64,000 bases of DNA. Origin: Halochromatium roseum. GTDB lineage: Bacteria; Pseudomonadota; Gammaproteobacteria; Chromatiales; Chromatiaceae. This document shows, piece by piece, positions 11,497-57,899 of this stretch (its first letter is position 1; each line of letters opens with the position of its first letter). The stretch is taken from contig NZ_NHSH01000076.1 of NCBI RefSeq assembly GCF_016653315.1, positions 1-64,000 on the forward strand. The letters run 5' to 3'. A model generated the notes under the pieces. The model ran no database searches. It was not told the origin of the DNA and saw only the letters and a program-made list of their open reading frames with translations. The position numbers and the translations under genes were made by a program.

Positions 11497-13167
11497 TCAG
11501 GGCAGATCGTTGCAGTGGTCCGCGTTGGCGCCAGGAGCCGCGCCCCAAGCGCCGCCGCGGGGGCGGTAACGGTTCGGGATCAACACCGTTGGGCGCAGCT
11601 GACTTGGGTCTTTCTGGGGGAAGTCCAGCGTGTAATGCAGCCCACGACTCTCGCGTCGGCGCTGCGCGGATTGGACGATGAGATCGGCGACATCGACCAG
11701 ATTGCGTAGCTCGAGCAGGTCGGTTTTGACCCGGAAATGGCTGTAATGCTCGATGATCTCCTGGCGCAGCAGGTCGACCCGGCGCTTGGCGCGCTGCAGG
11801 CGCTTGTTGGTGCGCACGATGCCGACATAGTCCCACATGAAGCGCCGCAGCTCTTCCCAGTTGTGCGAGATTACGATCTCTTCATCGGCTTGAGTGACGC
11901 GGCTTGCATCCCAAGCGGGCACCTCGGGTGGGGCGGTCCAGCCGGTTGCAAGCGCGGCGATGTCCTTGGCCGCTAGCTCGGCGAACACCAGGCACTCCAG
12001 CAGCGAGTTGCTGGCCATGCGATTGGCGCCGTGCAGGCCGGTGTAAGCCGTTTCGCCGATCGCATAGAGCCCTGGCAGATCGGTGCGGGCGCGTGCATCG
12101 ACGAGCAGCCCGCCGCAGGTATAGTGGGCCGCTGGGACCACCGGGATCGGCTCGCGCGTGATGTCGATGCCCAGCTCCAGACAACGCGCATGGATGGTTG
12201 GGAAATGCTCGGTGATGAAGTCGGCCGGGCGGTGCGAGATATCGAGATAGACAAACTTGCTGCCGGTGCGCTTGATCTCGTGGTCGATGGCGCGGGCGAC
12301 GACGTCGCGCGGTGCCAACTCAGCGCGCTCGTCGAAGCGCGGCATGAAGCGGTCGCCGTCGGGCAGCTTGAGTTTCGCACCTTCGCCGCGCAGCGCCTCA
12401 GTTATTAAGAATGACTTGGCCTTGGAGTGATACAGGCAGGTTGGATGAAACTGCATGAACTCCATGTTCGCGACCCGGCAGCCGGCACGCCAGCCCATCG
12501 CGATGCCATCGCCGGTGGCGACGTCGGGGTTGCTGGTGTAGACGTAGACCTTGCTCGCGCCGCCACTGGCGATGACCACGAAGCGGGCCAGGAAGGTATT
12601 GACCTCGTCGGTCATGTTGTCGAGCAGGTAGGCGCCGAGGCAGCGGTTCTCGCTGCCGCCGAGCTTGCGGTCGGTGATCAGGTCGATCGCGGCATGATGT
12701 TCGAACAGCTCGACGTTGCTGCGCGCGCGCACCAGGTCGGTGAGGGTGGTCTCGACGGCGCGGCCGGTCGCATCAGCGGCATGGATGACGCGGCGATGCG
12801 TATGGCCACCTTCACGCGTGAGATGGTAGCCGCTGGAGCCGGTGCCGCTGTCATCGCGGGTGAATTGAACGCCAGCCTCAAGCAGCCAATGGATATTGCC
12901 GGGGCCGCGCTCGACGACGAGTCGCACGATGGATTCATCGCAAAGCCCGTCGCCGGCCTTCAGGGTATCCTGTACGTGGGCGTCGATGGTGTCGGTGGCG
13001 TTGAGCACTGCGGAAATGCCACCTTGGGCGTAGAGGGTATTGCCTTCCTGGAGCTCACGCTTGGAGACCACAGCAACCGAGAGCGCTGATGGCAGACGCA
13101 GCGCGAGGCTGAGGCCTGCGGCACCGCTGCCGATGATCAGGACGTCATGGCGGTAAAGCTTGGGCAT
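11497..13167 (-). CDS. nadB: L-aspartate oxidase
   Basis: Flavoenzyme that oxidises L-aspartate to iminoaspartate, the first step of bacterial NAD synthesis; in anaerobes fumarate is the likely electron acceptor. The 556 residues show the FAD dinucleotide fold at the N-terminus ([16 protein letters not shown]), the substrate segment [50 protein letters not shown] and the helical C-domain ending in [14 protein letters not shown] 13167 fits the family start; a GTG-type extension to 13221 adds unconserved residues. Alone on this strand, convergent with hypF. nadA and nadC are not in the window. Confidence 0.97.
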
Positions 13168-13455
13168 GGGTGTCTGGCTTCCTCGCGCGAGCAGAAACGG
13201 ATAATGACGATTGGGTTGCAATCGGGGCTTGCAACAGAGTATGCCGCAGGTGAGCGGTTGCGTCGCCTGCTAGGCGTTGGGTCAATGGCTTTGACCACAG
13301 AGCGGGGGATTCGGTGAGATCCGCTTCTTGAATCTTGTCTAAGTCTATGTGTGGACAAAGATTAGACGATGTCGATGGAAATCGGCACAAAATCGGGCAA
13401 ACACGAAGCTGAAGATTTGTGTTGCGATATATCAAGCTGCGACTTGGTCAGTAGA
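13168..13455. other. intergenic region between nadB and rpoE
   Basis: With the rpoE promoter that follows, this makes a 357-base gene-free stretch between divergent genes. It contains an inverted repeat GTCTAA (13337-13342) and TTAGAC (13362-13367) with a 19-base spacer, which may be a regulatory site. I see no gene or RNA. Confidence 0.4.
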
Positions 13456-43108: not shown

Positions 43109-43909
43109 CTATCCCGCTTCTGGATACCAGCGCGGCGTATAGACCCAACGCTGCCCCTCGGCGGCCTCAAGGGTGCGGGTCTGCGAGGAGCCGATGATGA
43201 TGACCGTGCGCATATCGACCTGTTCAGGATCGACCTCGGCGAGCGTCGTGACAATGACCTGCTCGTCGATGCGACCGATCGACCGGCCCAGGATCACTGG
43301 GGTCTCAGGCGCGCGATGCGCACGCAATAGCGCCAGGGCCTCGCTGAACTGATGCGGCCGAGCGCGCGAACTCGGGTTGTAGAGCGCGATCACCAGATCG
43401 GCCTCGGCGGCCAGCTGCAAACGGCGCGCGATCACCGACCAAGGCTTGAGATTGTCCGACAGTGACAGGGTGCAGAAGTCGTGCCCGAGCGGTGCGCCGA
43501 TTCGGGCGGCGGCAGCCTGGGCGGCGGAGATGCCGGGGATGATCTGCAGATCGACCGCACCCCAAACCGGGTCTTTGGCCTGCTCCAGCGCCTCCATCAC
43601 CGCCGTCGCCATCGCAAAGATGCCGGGATCACCGGAGGAAACGACGACGACGCGATGCCCGGCGGCGGCGAGCTGGAAGGCATGACGTGCGCGTTCCAGC
43701 TCAACCCGGTTGTCAGAGTCGTGGACGCGCTGATCATCCCGAAATGGACCCGCGAGCTGGATATAGGTGCGATAGCCGATGATGTCTTCGGCTTCGCTCA
43801 GCGCGGCGCGCGCGGCTGGGGCGAGTAAGGCCGGGTCACCAGGACCGAGCCCGATCACACGCAGCCAGCCTTGGGGCCTGGGCGGAGTGCTGCTGGGTTG
43901 CCTGCTCAT
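43109..43909 (-). CDS. cobJ: precorrin-3B C(17)-methyltransferase
   Basis: SAM enzyme that methylates C-17 during ring contraction, acting right after the CobG/CobZ step. The 266 residues show [87 protein letters not shown] and [11 protein letters not shown]. Its start overlaps the cobI stop by four bases, forming the minus-strand cobH-cobI-cobJ operon. Confidence 0.96.
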
Positions 43910-45500: not shown

Positions 45501-45529
45501 TTGACACAGCGCGATCAGCCTTCTAGGCT
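45501..45529 (+). promoter_or_regulatory. sigma-70 promoter of the ArsR gene
   Basis: TTGACA (45501-45506), 17 bases, TAGGCT (45524-45529). A second copy with the same spacing (TTGACT, 17, TAGCCT) lies at 51460-51488. Confidence 0.7.
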
Positions 45530-45533
45530 ACAT

Positions 45534-45893
45534 GTGAACAGTTATTCAACTGTTTTAGGAGTATGCGATCTGTCCACTGAGCTCAGTCCTGACCAACGCC
45601 AGGCCCTGGCCGATATGTTCGCCCTGTTGGGCGATCCCACGCGGCTGGGCATCGTTCTGCGTTGTCGTCATCAACGCCGTTCGGTCTCCGAGATCGCCGA
45701 TGCGAGCAACCTGTCGATGTCGCTAGTGAGTCATCACCTGCGTCTGCTGCGCACCGCCGCCTTGCTCAAGGTGGAGCGAGAAGGGCGCCATGCCTACTAC
45801 TCCGTTGCCGATGCCCATGTCGAGCACATGCTCGATGACATGGTCGGTCATGTCCGACACACCAATGACGCCTCGCCTGGGCACACTCATTGA
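45534..45893 (+). CDS. ArsR/SmtB family metal-sensing repressor (CzrA-like)
   Basis: The winged helix spans about residues 28-100 (ALLGDPTRLGIVLRC, VSEIADASNLSMSLVSHHLRLLRTAALLKVEREGRHAYYSV). The C-terminal helix carries the alpha-5 metal site: Asp and His of ADAHVEH, then His eleven and fourteen positions on (GHVRH), as in CzrA (D, H, H, H). That predicts a Zn(II)/Co(II) sensor. GTG 45534 lies inside the operator, close to the predicted transcription start; a CTG at 45570, nine bases after TAGGAG, may be used instead. The His-rich protein downstream is its likely target, autoregulated with it. Confidence 0.88.
   Translation: MNSYSTVLGVCDLSTELSPDQRQALADMFALLGDPTRLGIVLRCRHQRRSVSEIADASNLSMSLVSHHLRLLRTAALLKVEREGRHAYYSVADAHVEHMLDDMVGHVRHTNDASPGHTH
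45537..45554. promoter_or_regulatory. ArsR/SmtB-type operator palindrome
   Basis: AACAGTT (45537-45543), ATTC, AACTGTT (45548-45554): a perfect palindrome. Its left side, TGAACAGTTATTCA, resembles the SmtB-class 12-2-12 operator. It overlaps the start of transcription, so a bound sensor would block RNA polymerase. The same palindrome occurs at 51496-51513. Confidence 0.7.
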
Positions 45894-45983: not shown

Positions 45984-46343
45984 ATGAGCCAACACTGCCA
46001 GTCCCATCCTCACCACGACCATCACCATGGCCCTGGCTGCGGTCATCAGGCCCTGCGCCACGACGATCACATTGACTATCTGCACGATGGCCATCTGCAT
46101 CATCCGCATGAGGTCGATGGTCTCGTCCACTACGACGAGCACGTCATCGCCATCAGCGCAACCAATCCCGACGGCTGCGAGCACCGGCTCACCGCGTGCC
46201 AGGAAGACGGCCATGTGCATGGGCTCGGCTGTGGCCATGAGGCGGTGCCGCACGGGGATCATGTCGACTACATCGTTGACGGTCGACTGCATCATCCACA
46301 CGGCGACCATTGTGATGATCATGGTCCGGTGACCTTGCTCTAG
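45984..46343 (+). CDS. His-rich metal-binding protein with two repeat units
   Basis: A 119-residue protein with about 30 His. Two repeats are visible: HGPGCGHQALRHDDHIDYLH then DGHLHHPH, and HGLGCGHEAVPHGDHVDYIV then DGRLHHPHGDH. Such proteins usually buffer zinc, nickel or cobalt. No signal peptide, so cytosolic. ATG 45984 after GGAG was chosen because the motif begins at MSQHCQSH; earlier starts at 45909 and 45921 exist. It directly follows the CzrA-like gene and shares its promoter. With a cobalamin cluster on both sides, a role in cobalt or zinc storage is plausible but unproven. Confidence 0.85.
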   Translation: MSQHCQSHPHHDHHHGPGCGHQALRHDDHIDYLHDGHLHHPHEVDGLVHYDEHVIAISATNPDGCEHRLTACQEDGHVHGLGCGHEAVPHGDHVDYIVDGRLHHPHGDHCDDHGPVTLL

Positions 46344-48119: not shown

Positions 48120-48488
48120 CTTAGCTCCGGTTGGCGGCTCGAGCCGAGTGGCTGGAGTCAGGTCGGCGATACCAGGGGCGATAGCAGGGTATCTTCAGCG
48201 TCTTGCTCCGATCCGGTTGCCGTCCTGAACGCCATGATGCAGGCTCAGTTCAGCAGGAAACTGTGTGAAATGCCGGCTGTTGCTGTGTGAGCTAACCATG
48301 ATCAGCGATCGCCTCCGCTTGTCATTCTGCGTAACAATTTGTTTTAAAAAGAAATGGAAGCATGGCGCAGCAAGTGCTTAGGCATCCGCCAGTGGCGCGA
48401 CTAATCAACCTTGGCGCGCCGAATTGCCCACCCTGGCCAGCGCTGGCTGAGGGTGCCGGTGTCCGAAGAATGCTGCTCGATCGATGAC
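48120..48488. other. divergent intergenic region before the copper receptor
   Basis: About 370 bases. At 48215-48290 a stretch GGTTGCC ... CAGGAAACTG ... GTGAAATGCCGGCTG loosely recalls the 5' half of a cobalamin riboswitch, but the B12 box is not present. AT-rich sequence at 48325-48355 is a likely promoter area. No gene is seen. Confidence 0.35.
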
Positions 48489-50849
48489 ATGACAATGCAT
48501 AACCGTTTCCAGCTCGTTGCCGCAGGTCTTTGCCTTGTGGTTGCGCCTAACCTGGCTGCCCAGGTAGGTTTCAACTCGGATGCGCCCGCGCTCCTTGAGC
48601 CGATCCTAGTGACCGCCCCTGAGGAACCTCCTGTCGGCCGTTCGTTCAGTCTCGGCCCGAGTGCGATCGCGCCCCAGCGCGCGCGAACCAGCGATACCGC
48701 CAAGCTCCTGACCGGCTTGCCCGGTGTCAGTGCCTATGGCGCCGGCGGCGTCTCCAGTCTGCCCGCCATCCGTGGTCTGGCGGATGAGCGTCTGCGCACC
48801 ACCGTGGATGGGATGGATCTGCTGGCGTCCTGTCCCAACCACATGAATCCGCCCATGTCCTACATCGATCCAACAGCGGTCGGACGCATCGAGGTCTTTG
48901 CCGGCGTCACCCCGGTCAGCGTCGGCGGCGACAGCATTGGCGGCACCATCGTGGTCGAGTCTGCGCCGCCCGCCTTTGCCAAGTCGGGAGAGCGACTGGT
49001 CGAAGGAGAGATGGGCGCCTTCTACCGCAGCAATGGCGACAGCTGGGGTGGCAATCTATCCGCAACGGTCGCCAGCGAGCAGCTGAGCCTCAACTATACG
49101 GGTGCTTACACACAGGCCGACAACGATCGCGCTGGTGGCAACTTTAAGGATTACGACTTCACCGGTCGAGCGGGCCATACCCTGGATCGCGACGAGGTCG
49201 GCTCCACCGCCTACGAGGCCAGCAACCAGTCGCTCACGCTGGCCTGGACGGATGGGCGCAGGCTGCTGGATTTGAGCTACGACCACCAGGATATCCCCTA
49301 CGAGGGCTTTCCGAACCAACGGATGGAGATGACCAGCAATCAGAGCGACCAGTTCAACCTGGGTTATGCCAGTGATCTGGCCTGGGGAAAGCTCAACGCG
49401 CGCGTCTACTACCAGCAGACGCGGCACGAGATGGACTTCGGCGACGACAAGCGCTTTTGGTACGGGCCTGGTCAGCCGCCGCTGGGCTCTGGCGGCAATA
49501 CGGCGTTGAACGGCATGCCCTGCTCGCCGATATCGGGTGTCAGGATGGTCAACGGCATGATGGTCGGCTGTGCGGCGGGCATGCCGATGGAGACCGACAG
49601 CAGCAACTTCGGCTTCACCGCCAACGCTGAGATCCCGGTCGGTCAGGACGACCTGCTGCGCGTCGGCGCCGACTACCAGCGTTATCGCCTCGATGATTGG
49701 TGGTCCCCATCCGGGGCCGGAATGTGGCCCTATACCTTCGACAATATCAACGACGGTCAGCGTGATCGTTACGCGGCGTTCGGCGAATGGGAGCTCACGA
49801 AGGGACGCTGGACCCACCTCCTTGGCCTCCGCTTCGAGGCAGTCCAGATGGATGCCGGCCCCGTGAGCGGCTACAACCTGGCGGCGCCGCCGACGAGCGG
49901 GACCGGCGGCCCCGGCAACCAAACTCGCGATGCAGAGCTGTTCAACAGCCGCTCCCGTTCCAATACCGATCACAACTGGGACCTCGCTTGGCTCGCGCGT
50001 TTCGCGCCGGACGCCATGCAGCGCTACGAGATTGGACTGGGGCAGAAGACCCGCTCGCCCAATCTCTACGAGCGCTATGCCTGGTCCACCTGGCAGATGG
50101 CTGCACTGATGAACAACTTCGTCGGCGATGGCAATGGCTACATCGGTAACCTCGACTTGAAGCCGGAGGTGGCGCGCACGCTGAGCATCACCGCCAACTG
50201 GCATGATGCCGACGAGCAACGCTGGGGCCTCCAGATCACCCCCTATTTCACCTACGTGCAGGACTACATCGACGCGGTGCAGTGGGATTCGGCGACCAAT
50301 GCCCCGCGAACGGTGCCGGTGGAGGATGATTTCACCCTGCTCAAATACGCCAATCAATCGGCCCAGCTCTTTGGGATAGACCTCTCCGCGGACCTTCTGT
50401 TGGCGAGCGGCACGCCCTATGGTGCATTCAGCGCGCAGCTAGCGGCCAGCTACACGCGAGGCAAGAATGAGGACACCGGGGACAATCTCTACAACATCAT
50501 GCCGCTGAATGCGACATTGATCCTGACCCAGACCAAGGGCCGGTGGCAGAATGCCTTGGAAGGCGAGTTTGTCGCGGCCAAGGACGACGTCTCGCAGGTA
50601 CGCAACGAGATCGAGACGGCCGGTTATGCGTTGCTGCACCTCCGCAGCCGCTATCAGACCCAGCGCTGGACCCTGGAGCTGGGGGTCGAGAATCTCTTCG
50701 ATCGCTTCTACGATTTGCCGTTAGGAGGCGCCTACGTTGGCCAGGGCACGACCATGACCATCCCGCCGGCGCCGAATCAGCCACAGTGGGGCACCGCTGT
50801 GCCGGGCCCGGGTCGCTCGCTGTACGCGGCCTTAAGCTACCGCTTCTGA
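48489..50849 (+). CDS. OprC/NosA-like TonB-dependent copper receptor
   Basis: Outer-membrane receptor, 786 residues, with a signal peptide (LVAAGLCLVVAPNLAAQ), a plug domain (about 35-170) and a beta-barrel ending in Phe (LYAALSYRF). The plug has a CxxxM motif, C115PNHM119, and the barrel has HEM (313-315). Published work on Pseudomonas OprC defined CxxxM-HxM as its copper site, so copper is the likely ligand. ATG 48489 gives the signal peptide; M29 (48495) is also possible. A DsrE-family periplasmic protein follows after 27 bases and probably works with it. Confidence 0.9.
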   Translation: MTMHNRFQLVAAGLCLVVAPNLAAQVGFNSDAPALLEPILVTAPEEPPVGRSFSLGPSAIAPQRARTSDTAKLLTGLPGVSAYGAGGVSSLPAIRGLADERLRTTVDGMDLLASCPNHMNPPMSYIDPTAVGRIEVFAGVTPVSVGGDSIGGTIVVESAPPAFAKSGERLVEGEMGAFYRSNGDSWGGNLSATVASEQLSLNYTGAYTQADNDRAGGNFKDYDFTGRAGHTLDRDEVGSTAYEASNQSLTLAWTDGRRLLDLSYDHQDIPYEGFPNQRMEMTSNQSDQFNLGYASDLAWGKLNARVYYQQTRHEMDFGDDKRFWYGPGQPPLGSGGNTALNGMPCSPISGVRMVNGMMVGCAAGMPMETDSSNFGFTANAEIPVGQDDLLRVGADYQRYRLDDWWSPSGAGMWPYTFDNINDGQRDRYAAFGEWELTKGRWTHLLGLRFEAVQMDAGPVSGYNLAAPPTSGTGGPGNQTRDAELFNSRSRSNTDHNWDLAWLARFAPDAMQRYEIGLGQKTRSPNLYERYAWSTWQMAALMNNFVGDGNGYIGNLDLKPEVARTLSITANWHDADEQRWGLQITPYFTYVQDYIDAVQWDSATNAPRTVPVEDDFTLLKYANQSAQLFGIDLSADLLLASGTPYGAFSAQLAASYTRGKNEDTGDNLYNIMPLNATLILTQTKGRWQNALEGEFVAAKDDVSQVRNEIETAGYALLHLRSRYQTQRWTLELGVENLFDRFYDLPLGGAYVGQGTTMTIPPAPNQPQWGTAVPGPGRSLYAALSYRF

Positions 50850-50876
50850 CCACCTTAACCAACCGGAGATTGAGCG

Positions 50877-51329
50877 ATGAAGAATCGGTTCTTTGTGACG
50901 TTTATCTTGCTATTGTCGTTGACGGGCTTGTCCTGGAACGCCCAGGCCGAGGAGGCCAAAGGCGGGCTGTTCATCAACCTGACCACCGATGACACCTGGG
51001 CGGCGGCCAAAGCGATCCAGTTTGCGCATGAGAAGGTCTTGAAGCGCGGCTACAAGCCGGTGGCGATCTGGCTCAATGTGCACGGGATCTACCTGGCCGA
51101 CAAGAAGCGGCCATCCCATGTCCACGGTCTGATGAAAGAGCAGGGCCGGTCCATTCAAGACATGCTGCAGGCGTTTGCGAAGGACGGCGGACTGGTGATC
51201 GCTTGCGCGGTCTGCTCCAAGGCGGCGGGCCTCACCGAGGACGATTTTATCGAAGGCGTTCAGATGGGGAATCCGGACCTGGTACTGGGCATTCTGTTCG
51301 ATCCGACGGTGAAGACGCTTTCCTGGTGA
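50877..51329 (+). CDS. periplasmic DsrE-family protein
   Basis: A 150-residue protein with a signal peptide (FFVTFILLLSLTGLSWNAQA) and a DsrE-like fold: GGLFINLTTDDTWAAAKAIQFA, VHGIYLADKK and the reactive-Cys loop LVIACAVCSKAAGL. DsrE proteins carry sulfur or bind thiolate metals; two Cys three apart in the CAVC motif could bind Cu(I). It is coupled to the copper receptor (ACCGGAG ribosome site). A perfect hairpin follows. Role is inference. Confidence 0.86.
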   Translation: MKNRFFVTFILLLSLTGLSWNAQAEEAKGGLFINLTTDDTWAAAKAIQFAHEKVLKRGYKPVAIWLNVHGIYLADKKRPSHVHGLMKEQGRSIQDMLQAFAKDGGLVIACAVCSKAAGLTEDDFIEGVQMGNPDLVLGILFDPTVKTLSW

Positions 51330-51341
51330 TCGGCTCAGATG

Positions 51342-51360
51342 GCCGGCCCAGGGGGCCGGC
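51342..51360 (+). terminator. hairpin after the DsrE gene
   Basis: GCCGGCCC (51342-51349), AGG, GGGCCGGC (51353-51360): eight perfect G-C-rich pairs. It lacks a T-run, so it may protect the transcript end rather than end it. Confidence 0.45.
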
Positions 51361-51459
51361 TTAGATGAGCGGTTGAGATACTCGGCTTGGTGACGATCGG
51401 AGCGGCCGATCGCATCGTCATCGTGTTGATTCAGGACAAGCGGCCTTCGATGGGCTGGC

Positions 51460-51513
51460 TTGACTGAGGCTTGGCTGGCTTCTAGCCTATAGATGAACAG
51501 TTATTCAACTGTT
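51460..51513 (+). promoter_or_regulatory. duplicated ArsR promoter and operator
   Basis: TTGACT (51460-51465), 17 bases, TAGCCT (51483-51488), then the palindrome AACAGTT-ATTC-AACTGTT (51496-51513). Spacing and palindrome match 45501-45554, so the CzrA-like repressor should bind here too. It reads into receptor debris. Confidence 0.65.
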
Positions 51514-51892
51514 TTAGTAGTCTGCGCTGTGTCAGCCGAGCTAAACCTTTATCGAGGCGATGACCGACTACTCCGAGCGCGGCCCGATTCGCGAGCCCTA
51601 TCTAACGATCGGCATGCGCCATGCTGCGGCAAAAGACGCGGCGCCCGGCGAGCCGTTCTCGCAGTTCGACCTGATGCCCTTTGGTACGGCATCGACCGAT
51701 GCCTACACCCTGGCCGATCTCGATCTGGGCTTTGCCTTCCGCGCCTTCGGCAGCCGCCTGGCTCGGGTCGATCTCACGGTGCGCAATCTGTTCGATACCG
51801 AGTACCGGGATTTTCTCGATACCTACAAGGGCTATGCGCTGAGCCCGGGGCGTGATATCCGGGTCAGTTTGAGTGTGCCGTTTGGGGGGTAA
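51493..51892 (+). pseudogene. ArsR 5' fragment fused to a ZnuD-like receptor 3' fragment
   Basis: The first 60 bases resemble the 5' end of the ArsR gene (MNSYSTVL, then VC and an SxEL motif). From about 51575 to 51892 the DNA matches the last 320 bases of the intact receptor gene (57495-57815) at roughly 95% identity by eye. An ATG at 51560 opens the receptor frame (110 codons, to the final PFGG), but lacks plug and most of the barrel. It is the product of a partial duplication and deletion. An ArsR-regulated short barrel-end peptide could still be made. Confidence 0.8.
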
Positions 51893-52024
51893 TGGATACT
51901 CACCCACATCGGTGAGCTGCCACATCCAGCCCCGATCCCGCCCGCACGCGGACCGCTCGCCTGGAACGAGGCCCCCGAGCCGATGCCGGACTGGGACCTC
52001 CTCAAACCCTCTCTGCTCGCCCAC

Positions 52025-53882: not shown

Positions 53883-55061
53883 TCAGGGCGTCGTTATTCT
53901 CCCAACATCACGCCAAGACAACACCAAGGCGTCTGAGCGCTGCTGGGTGCTGTCGCCCCCGTACACCAAGAATGCCCTCTGGTCATCGCTTGCGGACCCA
54001 TCCACGGGTCGTTCGGGGAAACGCTTCAGGTTGCGAAAAAAGTCGCTGGCGATGGTGGCGCCCGATTTGATCTCAACGCGGTCGAGCCGAAGTCCGTTCT
54101 CGATCAGCAGGTCGAGCTCGATCCCTCGGCTCTCGCGATAATGAAACAGATTCGGCCGTTGGCCGCTGTGCACGATCCCCTTGTAAACCTCGGCGACCAC
54201 CCAGCTCTCGAAGATGGCCCCGCGTAACGGATGTGATTGCAACTGCTCGGGCTCACGCATGCCCAGCAGGTAACACAGCAGACCGCTGTCGAAGAGGTGG
54301 AGCTTGGGCGCCTTGACGATCTGCTTGCGGACATTGGCATGCCATGCTGGGAGGCGATGCAGGACAAAGCTGGTCTCCAGCACCGACAACCAGGCCCGCG
54401 CGGTGTTATGCGAGACGCCCGCATCGGCGCCCAGCGCGCTGAGGTTGATTTCTTGTCCACTGCGCCCGGCACAGAGGCGCACGAACGTCATGAAGCTCTG
54501 CAGGTCGCCAACATTGATGATCTGGCGCACATCCCGCTGAATGTAAGTCGCAAGATAGTCACCGAGCCATTGATGGGCGGGAATGGCGCGATCATAGATG
54601 CGCGGATAGCTGCCTTGCCAGAGCAGTGTCCAGAGGTCGTCTGGCGTGTTCGGGAACGCACGCAGCTCGGATAAGCTGGGTGGCAGGAGCGTCAGCAGCC
54701 CACAGCGGCCGGCGAGCGATTGGGCAATGGCCTCGCTGAGACCAAGATGTTGCGACCCGGTCAGAACGAAACGGCCGACCTCAGGTCGCTCATCGACCTC
54801 GGTTTGCAGGTAGCTCAGCAATTCCGGAACCCGCTGGATCTCGTCGAGCACCGCGCCTTGGCGGTACTGGGCGAGGAAGCCACGGGGATCATCGCGGGCA
54901 AAATCACGCGTGTCCAGGGTCTCGAGCGAGACATAGGGGTGGTCAGGGAAGACGGCGCGACACAGCGTGGTCTTGCCGGACTGACGCGGGCCGGTGACCG
55001 CGACCACAGGATAATAGGTCGCAAGTTGGCGCAGATGGGGGTCGAGGGCGCGAGGAATCAT
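53883..55061 (-). CDS. AAA ATPase with DUF4143 domain
   Basis: A 392-residue protein. The N-terminal AAA_14 domain has Walker A VTGPRQSGKTTL and Walker B AVLDEIQRVP, followed by FVLTGSQHLGL. The C-terminal DUF4143 part shows the family segment ETSFVLHRLPAWH, then KLHLFDSGLLCYLLG and a nuclease-like LDLLIENGLRLDRVEIKSG. The biological role of this widespread family is unclear; it often behaves as an accessory gene. An 8-bp inverted repeat surrounds its start codon. It is next to receptor debris. Confidence 0.87.
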   Translation of the reverse strand: MIPRALDPHLRQLATYYPVVAVTGPRQSGKTTLCRAVFPDHPYVSLETLDTRDFARDDPRGFLAQYRQGAVLDEIQRVPELLSYLQTEVDERPEVGRFVLTGSQHLGLSEAIAQSLAGRCGLLTLLPPSLSELRAFPNTPDDLWTLLWQGSYPRIYDRAIPAHQWLGDYLATYIQRDVRQIINVGDLQSFMTFVRLCAGRSGQEINLSALGADAGVSHNTARAWLSVLETSFVLHRLPAWHANVRKQIVKAPKLHLFDSGLLCYLLGMREPEQLQSHPLRGAIFESWVVAEVYKGIVHSGQRPNLFHYRESRGIELDLLIENGLRLDRVEIKSGATIASDFFRNLKRFPERPVDGSASDDQRAFLVYGGDSTQQRSDALVLSWRDVGRITTP

Positions 55062-55086
55062 GCACTCAGTTTAGACCAGAGTGCAT
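55060..55086. promoter_or_regulatory. inverted repeat around the DUF4143 ATPase start
   Basis: ATGCACTC (55060-55067) and GAGTGCAT (55079-55086) are perfect eight-base arms with an 11-base spacer; the first arm covers the minus-strand start codon. It may be an operator or an mRNA hairpin hiding the start. A second hairpin, TGTAAG/CTTACA, lies at 55091-55107. Confidence 0.45.
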
Positions 55087-55136
55087 GGATTGTAAGTTCA
55101 GCTTACAAATGCTGAAGCAGCACGGATACCGATGCG

Positions 55137-55243
55137 GGGGGCTGCGCCTCGACTGGTACCCCATGGCCGGGGATGCCGGTAAGACACGGGCTCCGGTGGG
55201 CGTTCGGCAACCGCCTGGCTCGGGTCGATCTGACGGTGCGCAA
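55137..55243 (+). pseudogene. two-piece remnant of a ZnuD-like receptor
   Basis: 55137-55193 codes LRLDWYPMAGDAGKTRA, matching LRHDWHSVTGDAGKTRA of the intact receptor (nt about 56916). 55203-55243 matches 57669-57709 almost base for base. About 700 bases between these parts are missing. It is not translatable as a receptor. Confidence 0.75.
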
Positions 55244-55644: not shown

Positions 55645-55665
55645 GATGGTCTATGTTATACCATC
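55645..55665. promoter_or_regulatory. palindrome upstream of the ZnuD-like receptor
   Basis: GATGGT (55645-55650) and ACCATC (55660-55665) flank TATGTTATA. The TGTTATA core recalls Zur boxes. It lies 45 bases before the receptor ATG, a suitable place for a repressor. Confidence 0.4.
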
Positions 55666-55709
55666 ACGTTTCCGCCCTAAACCCCTGCTGCTCAATGAGG
55701 CCGAACCTG

Positions 55710-57815
55710 ATGCACAAGGTCCATCGCACGTTCTTAGCGGGGCTGCTCGTCGGCAGTCCTGCCACGTCACTGCTCGCGCAACCGATGAACGATGATCAGG
55801 AGTTCTCGATTGAGCTCGATGCCATCGAGGTCACCGCCGGCGTGCCGGTGCCGGGCGATCCGCTGTTGCAGGCGGCGAACATTGCGGTGCTCTCCGGCGA
55901 AGACCTGCGTCGCCGCCAACGGTTCACGCTCGGTGAGACCCTGGAGACCTTGCCTGGCGTTGCCTCGATCACCGCCGGAAACATGGTCGGCAAGCCGGTG
56001 ATTCGCGGCCTCAGCGGCAATCAGATCCAGGTGTTGTCGAACGGCATCGGTGTCGATTATCAACAGTATGGCGAGCGGCATCCACCCAACATCGATCCCT
56101 TCCTCGCCGGGCGCATCGAGGTGGTCCGGGGTGCCTCGAGTCTGCTCTACGGCTCGGGTGCGCTTGGTGGCGCCATCGATGTGCAGGCCCCCGCGTTCGT
56201 GTTCATGCCCGAGGGCGAGAGCGAAGCCCTGGCCGATACCCTGTTCGTCTATCACAGCAACAACGAACAATGGGATACCGGCGCCAAGGCGCGCGCGAGC
56301 AGCGATCGGTTCAGCCTGGATGCCGGCATCATGGGCCGATCCGCGGGCAACCTGACGACCCCCAATGCCGCGACGGCCGCCGAGTCGGGCAATCCGAGCG
56401 ATCCCAAGTTCACCGGCGAGCTTCCCTTCACCAACTTCGATCAGCTCAACGCTCAGTTTGGCGCTGGCATGCTGACCGACGTGGGCGAATTCGGTGTCCG
56501 CTACAACCAATGGAATAACGAGAACAACTTTCTGCTGCCGACCGGCCAAGGCATCGGCCTGTGGCTGAACAATGACCAGCTCCAGCTGACGGGCGCCATG
56601 CCGCTCGCCTCCGACTGGGAGCTGAAGCCGACCCTGTCCTGGCAGCACAACCTGCGCCGGGCCAATAGCCCCGGACAGCCACTGAGCGCCGGCTATGATG
56701 GGACCATCCATCTCGAATTCGATCGCTATGTCGCCCGGCTCGAGGCCATTCATGGTCCGCTCGGACCCTTCGATGGCGGCACCTTGGGCGTCGAGTACAG
56801 CAACAAGATTCAATACTCGCGCGGGACCACGGTACTGGCGCCAGGCGGCGAGGTGAGTAACCTGGCGCTGTTCGCCTTCGAGAGCAAGGACATCGGCGAC
56901 TGGACCCTGCAAGCGGGGCTGCGCCACGACTGGCACTCTGTGACTGGGGATGCCGGAAAGACCCGGGCGGCGGTGACGTTCACTGGCCGTGACTCACATG
57001 ACTATTCGGTCTTCACCGGTTCGCTCGGCGCGGTCTATCGCCTCACCGATCAGGTCGCGATCGCCTCCAATCTCGGCCGTGGCTTCCGCGCGCCGAGCCT
57101 GTTCGAACTCTATGCAGACGGGGTCCATGGTGGCGTGGCCGCGATTCAGGAGGGTAATCCCGATCTCGAGCCGGAACAGTCCATCAACGTTGATCTGGGC
57201 CTGCGTTGGAACACGCCTCGACTGCAGGGCAGTGCGACCGTCTATCGCAACGCCATCAGCGACTACATCTACCTGCAAGATACCGGCCGGTCGCGCAATG
57301 GTCTGCCGATCTTTGCCTACCAGCAGGACGATGCGCTGCTGACTGGGCTCGAGCTGGAAGCCAGCTGGCAGCTGACCGATCAGCTCGAGCTCAGCGGCAG
57401 CCTGGATCTGGTGCGGGGCACGAACGATCGCACTGACGAGGATCTGCCCTTGCTGCCTGCCGATTCGTTGCGGCTTGAGGCGACCTATTGGTTCGCCGAG
57501 CGCGGACCGATTCGCGAGCCCTATCTGACCCTCGGCATGCGCCATGCTGCGGCAAAAGACGCGGCGCCCGGCGAGCCGTTCTCGCAGTTCGACCTGATGC
57601 CTTTTGGTACGGCATCGACCGATGCCTACACCCTGGCCGATCTCGATCTGGGCTTTGCCTTCCCCGCCTTCGGCAACCGCCTGGCTCGGGTCGATCTGAC
57701 GGTGCGCAATCTGTTCGATACCGAGTACCGGGATTTTCTCGATACCTACAAGGGTTATGCGCTGAGCCCGGGGCGTGATATCCGGGTCAGTTTGAGCCTG
57801 CCTTTTGGAGGGTGA
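55710..57815 (+). CDS. ZnuD-like TonB-dependent receptor
   Basis: Outer-membrane receptor of 701 residues: signal peptide (TFLAGLLVGSPATSLLA), plug (about 35-165, with GETLETLPGVASI, GKPVIRGLSGNQIQVL, GRIEVVRGASSLLYGSGALGGAI) and barrel. The C-terminal part (FGTASTDAYTLADLDLGF, VRNLFDTEYRDFLD) and His-containing loops suit the ZnuD zinc receptor group; cobalt is possible given the cobalamin genes. ATG 55710, nine bases after GAGG, was chosen over 55653. It is the intact copy of the fragments at 51575-51892 and 55137-55243. Confidence 0.86.
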   Translation: MHKVHRTFLAGLLVGSPATSLLAQPMNDDQEFSIELDAIEVTAGVPVPGDPLLQAANIAVLSGEDLRRRQRFTLGETLETLPGVASITAGNMVGKPVIRGLSGNQIQVLSNGIGVDYQQYGERHPPNIDPFLAGRIEVVRGASSLLYGSGALGGAIDVQAPAFVFMPEGESEALADTLFVYHSNNEQWDTGAKARASSDRFSLDAGIMGRSAGNLTTPNAATAAESGNPSDPKFTGELPFTNFDQLNAQFGAGMLTDVGEFGVRYNQWNNENNFLLPTGQGIGLWLNNDQLQLTGAMPLASDWELKPTLSWQHNLRRANSPGQPLSAGYDGTIHLEFDRYVARLEAIHGPLGPFDGGTLGVEYSNKIQYSRGTTVLAPGGEVSNLALFAFESKDIGDWTLQAGLRHDWHSVTGDAGKTRAAVTFTGRDSHDYSVFTGSLGAVYRLTDQVAIASNLGRGFRAPSLFELYADGVHGGVAAIQEGNPDLEPEQSINVDLGLRWNTPRLQGSATVYRNAISDYIYLQDTGRSRNGLPIFAYQQDDALLTGLELEASWQLTDQLELSGSLDLVRGTNDRTDEDLPLLPADSLRLEATYWFAERGPIREPYLTLGMRHAAAKDAAPGEPFSQFDLMPFGTASTDAYTLADLDLGFAFPAFGNRLARVDLTVRNLFDTEYRDFLDTYKGYALSPGRDIRVSLSLPFGG

Positions 57816-57899
57816 TGCTTGATGCTGAAATACGGCGAAATCTCAAAGGCGTGATGACAGGCTGATGTCCGCGAATCTGCGCGCATGATTCTTTCGCCA

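Follow-up and report, generated by a model that had tools for sequence, protein, structure and literature searches.

An orphan ArsR-type operator beside a receptor fragment in Halochromatium roseum, probably the stump of a second arsR left by reciprocal loss

Background

Metal sensors of the SmtB family act at operators of the 12-2-12 inverted-repeat type and the layouts described for SmtB-smt, ZiaR-zia, AztR-azt and AzuR-nmtA are collected in Table 2 of PMC8790569. Here we describe a related locus in a 64,000-nucleotide stretch of the Halochromatium roseum genome (contig NZ_NHSH01000076.1, positions 1 to 64,000; hereafter the window), in which a sensor gene (arsR) with its promoter and operator at 45.5 kb (copy 1) is accompanied by a second promoter and operator at 51.46 kb (copy 2) that runs into the 3' end of a receptor gene. 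The sensor has the ArsR fold and the D-x-H-x10-H-x2-H signature of the SmtB/CzrA-type alpha5 autorepressors, its operator occupies the same position between the -10 box and the start, and the central TGAACA-GT-TATTCA closely resembles TGAATA-GT-TGTTCA, the repeat of Anabaena aztA (PMC8790569). As in smtB-smtA the sensor gene is followed by a gene for a metal-binding protein, although the partner here is His-rich and not a Cys-rich metallothionein. The operator differs from the SmtB type in being an imperfect 12-2-12 repeat that also contains a 7-4-7 palindrome, and the second site is orphaned rather than being a second site within one operator region.

A further parallel is the reciprocal (divergent) loss of tandem duplicates, where sister lineages keep different ones of the same two ancestral copies and stumps are left at the places of the lost ones. 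What is distinctive here is only the intact operator in one stump and the receptor tail fused to it, and the Halochromatium stump is probably a further case of this known process, of low general interest. Also close are the loci of the same-genus genomes of Halochromatium glycolicum DSM 11080, Lamprobacter modestohalophilus DSM 25653 and Halochromatium sp. A10, each of which has the operator once with all 24 positions identical and an ArsR of 89-95% amino acid identity. The cassette stands left of a sigma-54 gene in H. glycolicum and right of a DsrE gene in the other two, and the gene for the His-rich protein (hisrich) follows arsR in H. glycolicum and L. modestohalophilus and has been lost in A10. 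We put at roughly 85% the probability that 51460-51549 is what remains of the 5' end of a second arsR, still at its ancestral site after an OprC-like receptor and DsrE, and that this stump was left by an old duplication with reciprocal loss and later joined to the tail of a ZnuD-like receptor.

Two copies of the promoter and operator

An earlier note on this DNA had placed a promoter of the form TTGAC(A/T)-17-TAG(G/C)CT followed by a palindrome at 45501-45554 and again at 51460-51513, and both are present. Inspection of the window sequence gives TTGACA (45501-45506)-17-TAGGCT (45524-45529) for copy 1 and TTGACT (51460-51465)-17-TAGCCT (51483-51488) for copy 2, and the 18-bp palindrome AACAGTTATTCAACTGTT (AACAGTTN4AACTGTT) is exact at 45537-45554 and 51496-51513. 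A genome-wide pattern search found the exact palindrome nowhere else in the 5.17-Mb genome, and within the window the expectation from shuffled sequence is 0 matches even with 3 mismatches. The resemblance of the two regions is wider than the palindrome, with an ungapped alignment of 110 bp at 71% identity and a best local alignment of 64 bp at 83% (E about 6e-13) that spans the -35 box to the first arsR codons; a genome search found such extended similarity at these two loci only. Matches to the palindrome with 1 or 2 mismatches were genome-wide no commoner than those of a reversed-pattern control and yielded no further operators. An operator-like sequence, AACAGTCAATCGACTGTT, was noted at C88:2269. 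The features of the locus are listed in Table 1.

Table 1 Positions of the features of the two arsR-type regions and their neighbours in the window
Feature	Position	Strand	Basis
Promoter of the intact arsR, copy 1	45501..45529	+	Positions by inspection; core 24/39 identical to copy 2
Operator copy 1, TGAACAGTTATTCAACTGTTTTAG	45535..45558	+	Exact in the genome only here and at 51494; invariant in five copies
ArsR/SmtB-family sensor	45570..45893	+	Pfam HTH_5/HTH_20, NCBIfam NF033788, alpha5 motif
His-rich 119-aa protein (hisrich), presumed ArsR operon partner	45984..46343	+	Homologues adjoin ArsR genes
OprC-like TonB-dependent receptor (copper-porin family)	48411..50849	+	phmmer to OprC 6fok, E 4e-21
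DsrE-like exported protein	50877..51329	+	Pfam DsrE; synteny
Promoter of the lost second arsR, copy 2	51460..51488	+	Core 38/39 identical to L. modestohalophilus and A10 arsR promoters
Operator copy 2, orphan, predicted second ArsR binding site	51494..51517	+	24/24 identical to every other copy
Stump of second arsR, GTG and six codons (VSAELNL)	51529..51549	+	29/31 identical to L. modestohalophilus just past the operator
ZnuD-like receptor 3' end, pseudogene fragment	51552..51894	+	308/322 identical to 57496-57817
ZnuD-like TonB receptor, intact; family from which the fragment derives	55653..57815	+	NCBIfam ZnuD and PDB ZnuD matches

The sensor, its operator and the His-rich partner

The arsR product is a winged helix-turn-helix protein of the ArsR family, with PF01022 and PF12840 above gathering and NF033788 at 80.7 bits against a cut-off of 55. 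Its best PDB matches are SmtB and CzrA, to both of which it aligns without gaps across the alpha5 motif, and the ligand motif D-x-H-x10-H-x2-H (DAHVEHMLDDMVGHVRH) is present in four of four proteins, the H. glycolicum protein having Q instead of R at one position that is not a ligand. The start of the gene is most likely CTG 45570, which follows AGGAG, or else GTG 45534.

The operator is placed between the -10 box and the arsR coding start and combines the 7+7 palindrome with a 12-2-12 layout in which 8-9 of 12 pairs (8 in copy 1) agree about TGAACA-GT-TATTCA; at least 8 pairs are reached at 0.55% of random window positions. All 24 bases are identical in five copies from four genomes while as many as 18 of the 39 positions of the flanking core promoter vary (21/39 identical between H. 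glycolicum and L. modestohalophilus), and this invariance of the operator despite divergence of the promoter argues for constraint by ArsR. Together with the 12-2-12 layout and the alpha5 motif it also makes it probable that the stump at copy 2 is still bound by ArsR, in line with the prediction of a second site in the earlier note. The palindrome was also considered as ArsR coding sequence. This is ruled out in A10, in which an insertion of 1 bp after the palindrome and before arsR disrupts that frame; in the other genomes a GTG or ATG start inside the operator is possible, yet all 24 bases are conserved, synonymous positions included.

The hisrich product has no match in Pfam or NCBIfam. Eight distant gammaproteobacterial loci were compared, and in five of them a homologue (56-68% over the aligned parts) adjoins an ArsR gene; no TGAA-N6-TTCA site lies upstream of these distant pairs. 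The recurring pairing suggests that the two genes form an operon for metal buffering that is autorepressed like smtB-smtA. The protein carries two GCGH...HGDHVDY-type repeats and is a neighbour of ArsR genes in several gammaproteobacterial families. The locus offers a well-defined and genus-conserved operator for an uncharacterised ArsR/His-rich pair beside an OprC-like receptor; a literature search found no paper on this operator or on a Halochromatium ArsR.

The stump and the receptor fragment

In copy 2 the likeness to arsR stops at 51549. The stretch of arsR-like sequence, previously estimated at about 60 bases, has to be shortened to about 36 bases past the palindrome (51514-51549), of which about 21 from GTG 51529 are coding, and the Shine-Dalgarno-like AGGAG before the stump is altered to AGTAG. 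The gene is thus broken off and the receptor tail follows in a different frame. That tail had rightly been described as the last 320 or so bases of the ZnuD-like receptor, its core 51573-51894 corresponding to 57496-57817 over 322 bp at 95.7% identity. A GAGGCGA match at 51553-51559 may extend the fragment leftward, with a 12-bp divergent block between. This junction block (51560-51571, TGACCGACTACT) is unlike every ZnuD-like relative over nearly all of its length, with flanks that match.

The intact ZnuD-like gene matches the NCBIfam ZnuD model at E 7e-47, which is below the cut-off, and PDB ZnuD at E 1e-24. The fragment is the only other sizeable copy of ZnuD-like sequence in the genome, and a second ZnuD-like gene that could have been its donor was sought there and is absent. 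The fragment is closer to the ZnuD-like gene of its own genome than that gene is to its counterparts in relatives (92.5% in L. modestohalophilus; 92-93% across L. modestohalophilus and A10), and therefore arose in this lineage after the split. When polarised with the relatives the differences between fragment and intact gene fall roughly half on each copy, and the derived changes in the fragment (two amino-acid, four silent and one stop-codon) show no clear constraint.

The transcription unit of copy 2 contains no intact receptor gene, only a 110-aa C-terminal ORF (51560-51892, out of frame with arsR) and then opposite-strand genes. Its sequence excludes a functional receptor from 51552-51894, and the question is whether a working ArsR-controlled promoter might instead express a small regulated protein or an RNA from the ORF. 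The promoter and operator of copy 2 are intact and the ORF is open with GAGG 2 nt before its ATG at 51560, but the ORF has neither signal peptide nor plug and little of the barrel, the relatives have no such ORF at this place, it belongs to a fragment that arose recently in this lineage, and its derived changes are those just described, so that we regard such a product as unlikely. We give still less credence to the idea that the orphan operator has been preserved to serve as a decoy (titration) site or ArsR-controlled promoter of a receptor-tail transcript, in which case the stump would have a new regulatory role; the operator has been retained too recently in this lineage for selection on it to be proved. 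The stump is most likely an inert orphan promoter, predicted to be ArsR-bound, and represents ordinary genome decay.

Origin of the second copy

In L. modestohalophilus and A10 the gene order is OprC-like receptor, DsrE, operator and arsR, with hisrich next in L. modestohalophilus, and in both an intact arsR stands at the place syntenic with copy 2. Window positions 51357-51549 align with 13050-13236 of L. modestohalophilus at 89%, extending the alignment of the DsrE flank, and 48466-51549 align with A10 in a single alignment at 91%. The core promoter of copy 2 agrees at 38/39 positions with each of these genomes versus 24/39 with copy 1, and the 5' end of arsR at 29/31 with L. modestohalophilus and 28/30 with A10 versus 20/31 with copy 1. 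This better match to the relatives at the same place identifies copy 2 as an orthologous stump and not as a copy of the 45.5-kb region.

The same comparison, together with an upstream flank that is colinear with both relatives, makes it very improbable that the operator region was captured ectopically, that is copied from the 45.5-kb arsR to 51.46 kb beside the receptor fragment, even though this one genome does have two copies and the receptor debris at 55138-55243 marks a recombining region. Of the capture by recombination proposed earlier one part stands, since the fusion was made by recombination, but the operator is in its ancestral place and it was the receptor tail that was joined to it. 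Least credible is the companion proposal that the operator formerly controlled receptor expression at the copy-2 locus, for although the site and the receptor genes next to it share one strand, in the relatives the site lies 3' of the OprC-like receptor and DsrE and drives arsR, and their ZnuD-like gene is 4-6.5 kb beyond it behind opposite-strand genes with no operator site in front. Reciprocal loss of duplicated cassettes can leave behind what looks like a regulatory link, such as an operator next to a piece of a receptor gene.

If copy 2 is a stump left by reciprocal loss, the common ancestor would have had two arsR-hisrich cassettes, for which the simplest origin is a tandem duplication of arsR-hisrich-sigma54 regulator-DsbD2-receptor-DsrE. 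The lineage of the window would have retained the first of them, at 45.5 kb, with the second deleted after about seven arsR codons, and L. modestohalophilus and A10 would have kept the second. L. modestohalophilus would have lost, besides the first cassette, the greater part of the second receptor unit, and A10 would have lost hisrich. In the window a deletion or recombination would have brought the stump up against a duplicate of the ZnuD-like receptor's 3' end. The ArsR from 45.5 kb would probably repress the orphan promoter in a metal-dependent manner, at most silencing a non-functional transcript.

Remnants in L. modestohalophilus bear on this route. Between cobH and the sigma-54 gene this genome is without arsR-hisrich and has kept the last 17 bp of hisrich with its flank (7953 corresponding to 46327), a remnant that is small with 17 bp of coding sequence, and a 117-bp remnant of receptor 3' and DsrE 5' sequence stands right after its hisrich. 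Together with the window stump these fit one tandem duplication that was pruned differently. H. glycolicum has the cassette on the sigma-54 side only, and no second-position remnants were seen after DsrE in H. glycolicum or in two further genomes (G005 and G006). The arsR coding bodies are about equally distant between the groups, copy 1 agreeing at 282/318 positions with L. modestohalophilus and 285/318 with H. glycolicum, which makes gene conversion or another duplication history possible.

Neighbouring genes and rearrangements

Synteny identifies the OprC-like receptor as the conserved upstream neighbour of the copy-2 site, and its plug motif CPNHM aligns with CPNRM of OprC 6fok. The receptor (CPNHM, CxxxM) is encoded in a conserved block, possibly a copper-uptake locus, which also encodes a DsbD_2-type membrane protein, a sigma-54 regulator and the exported DsrE-like protein. 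An Rfam search returned two tRNAs and nothing else.

In A10, from which hisrich is deleted, the 3' end of arsR runs into a truncated PAS/EAL-type gene, the EAL label coming from inspection of the translation; the PAS/EAL-type gene is intact after hisrich in Lamprobacter. The debris at 55138-55243 of the window is a mosaic in which 61 bp resembling 56915-56975 of the ZnuD-like gene are joined to 44 bp resembling its 57666-57709, and it sits within a short minus-strand ORF that is receptor-like. Such debris points to a region prone to rearrangement. An ATPase-like gene lies at 53883-55061 in the window, and in H. glycolicum and G005 a cobJ-end-like stretch adjoins such a gene (the corresponding window positions being 43120-43245 and 54557-55130), an adjacency that is another sign of reshuffling.
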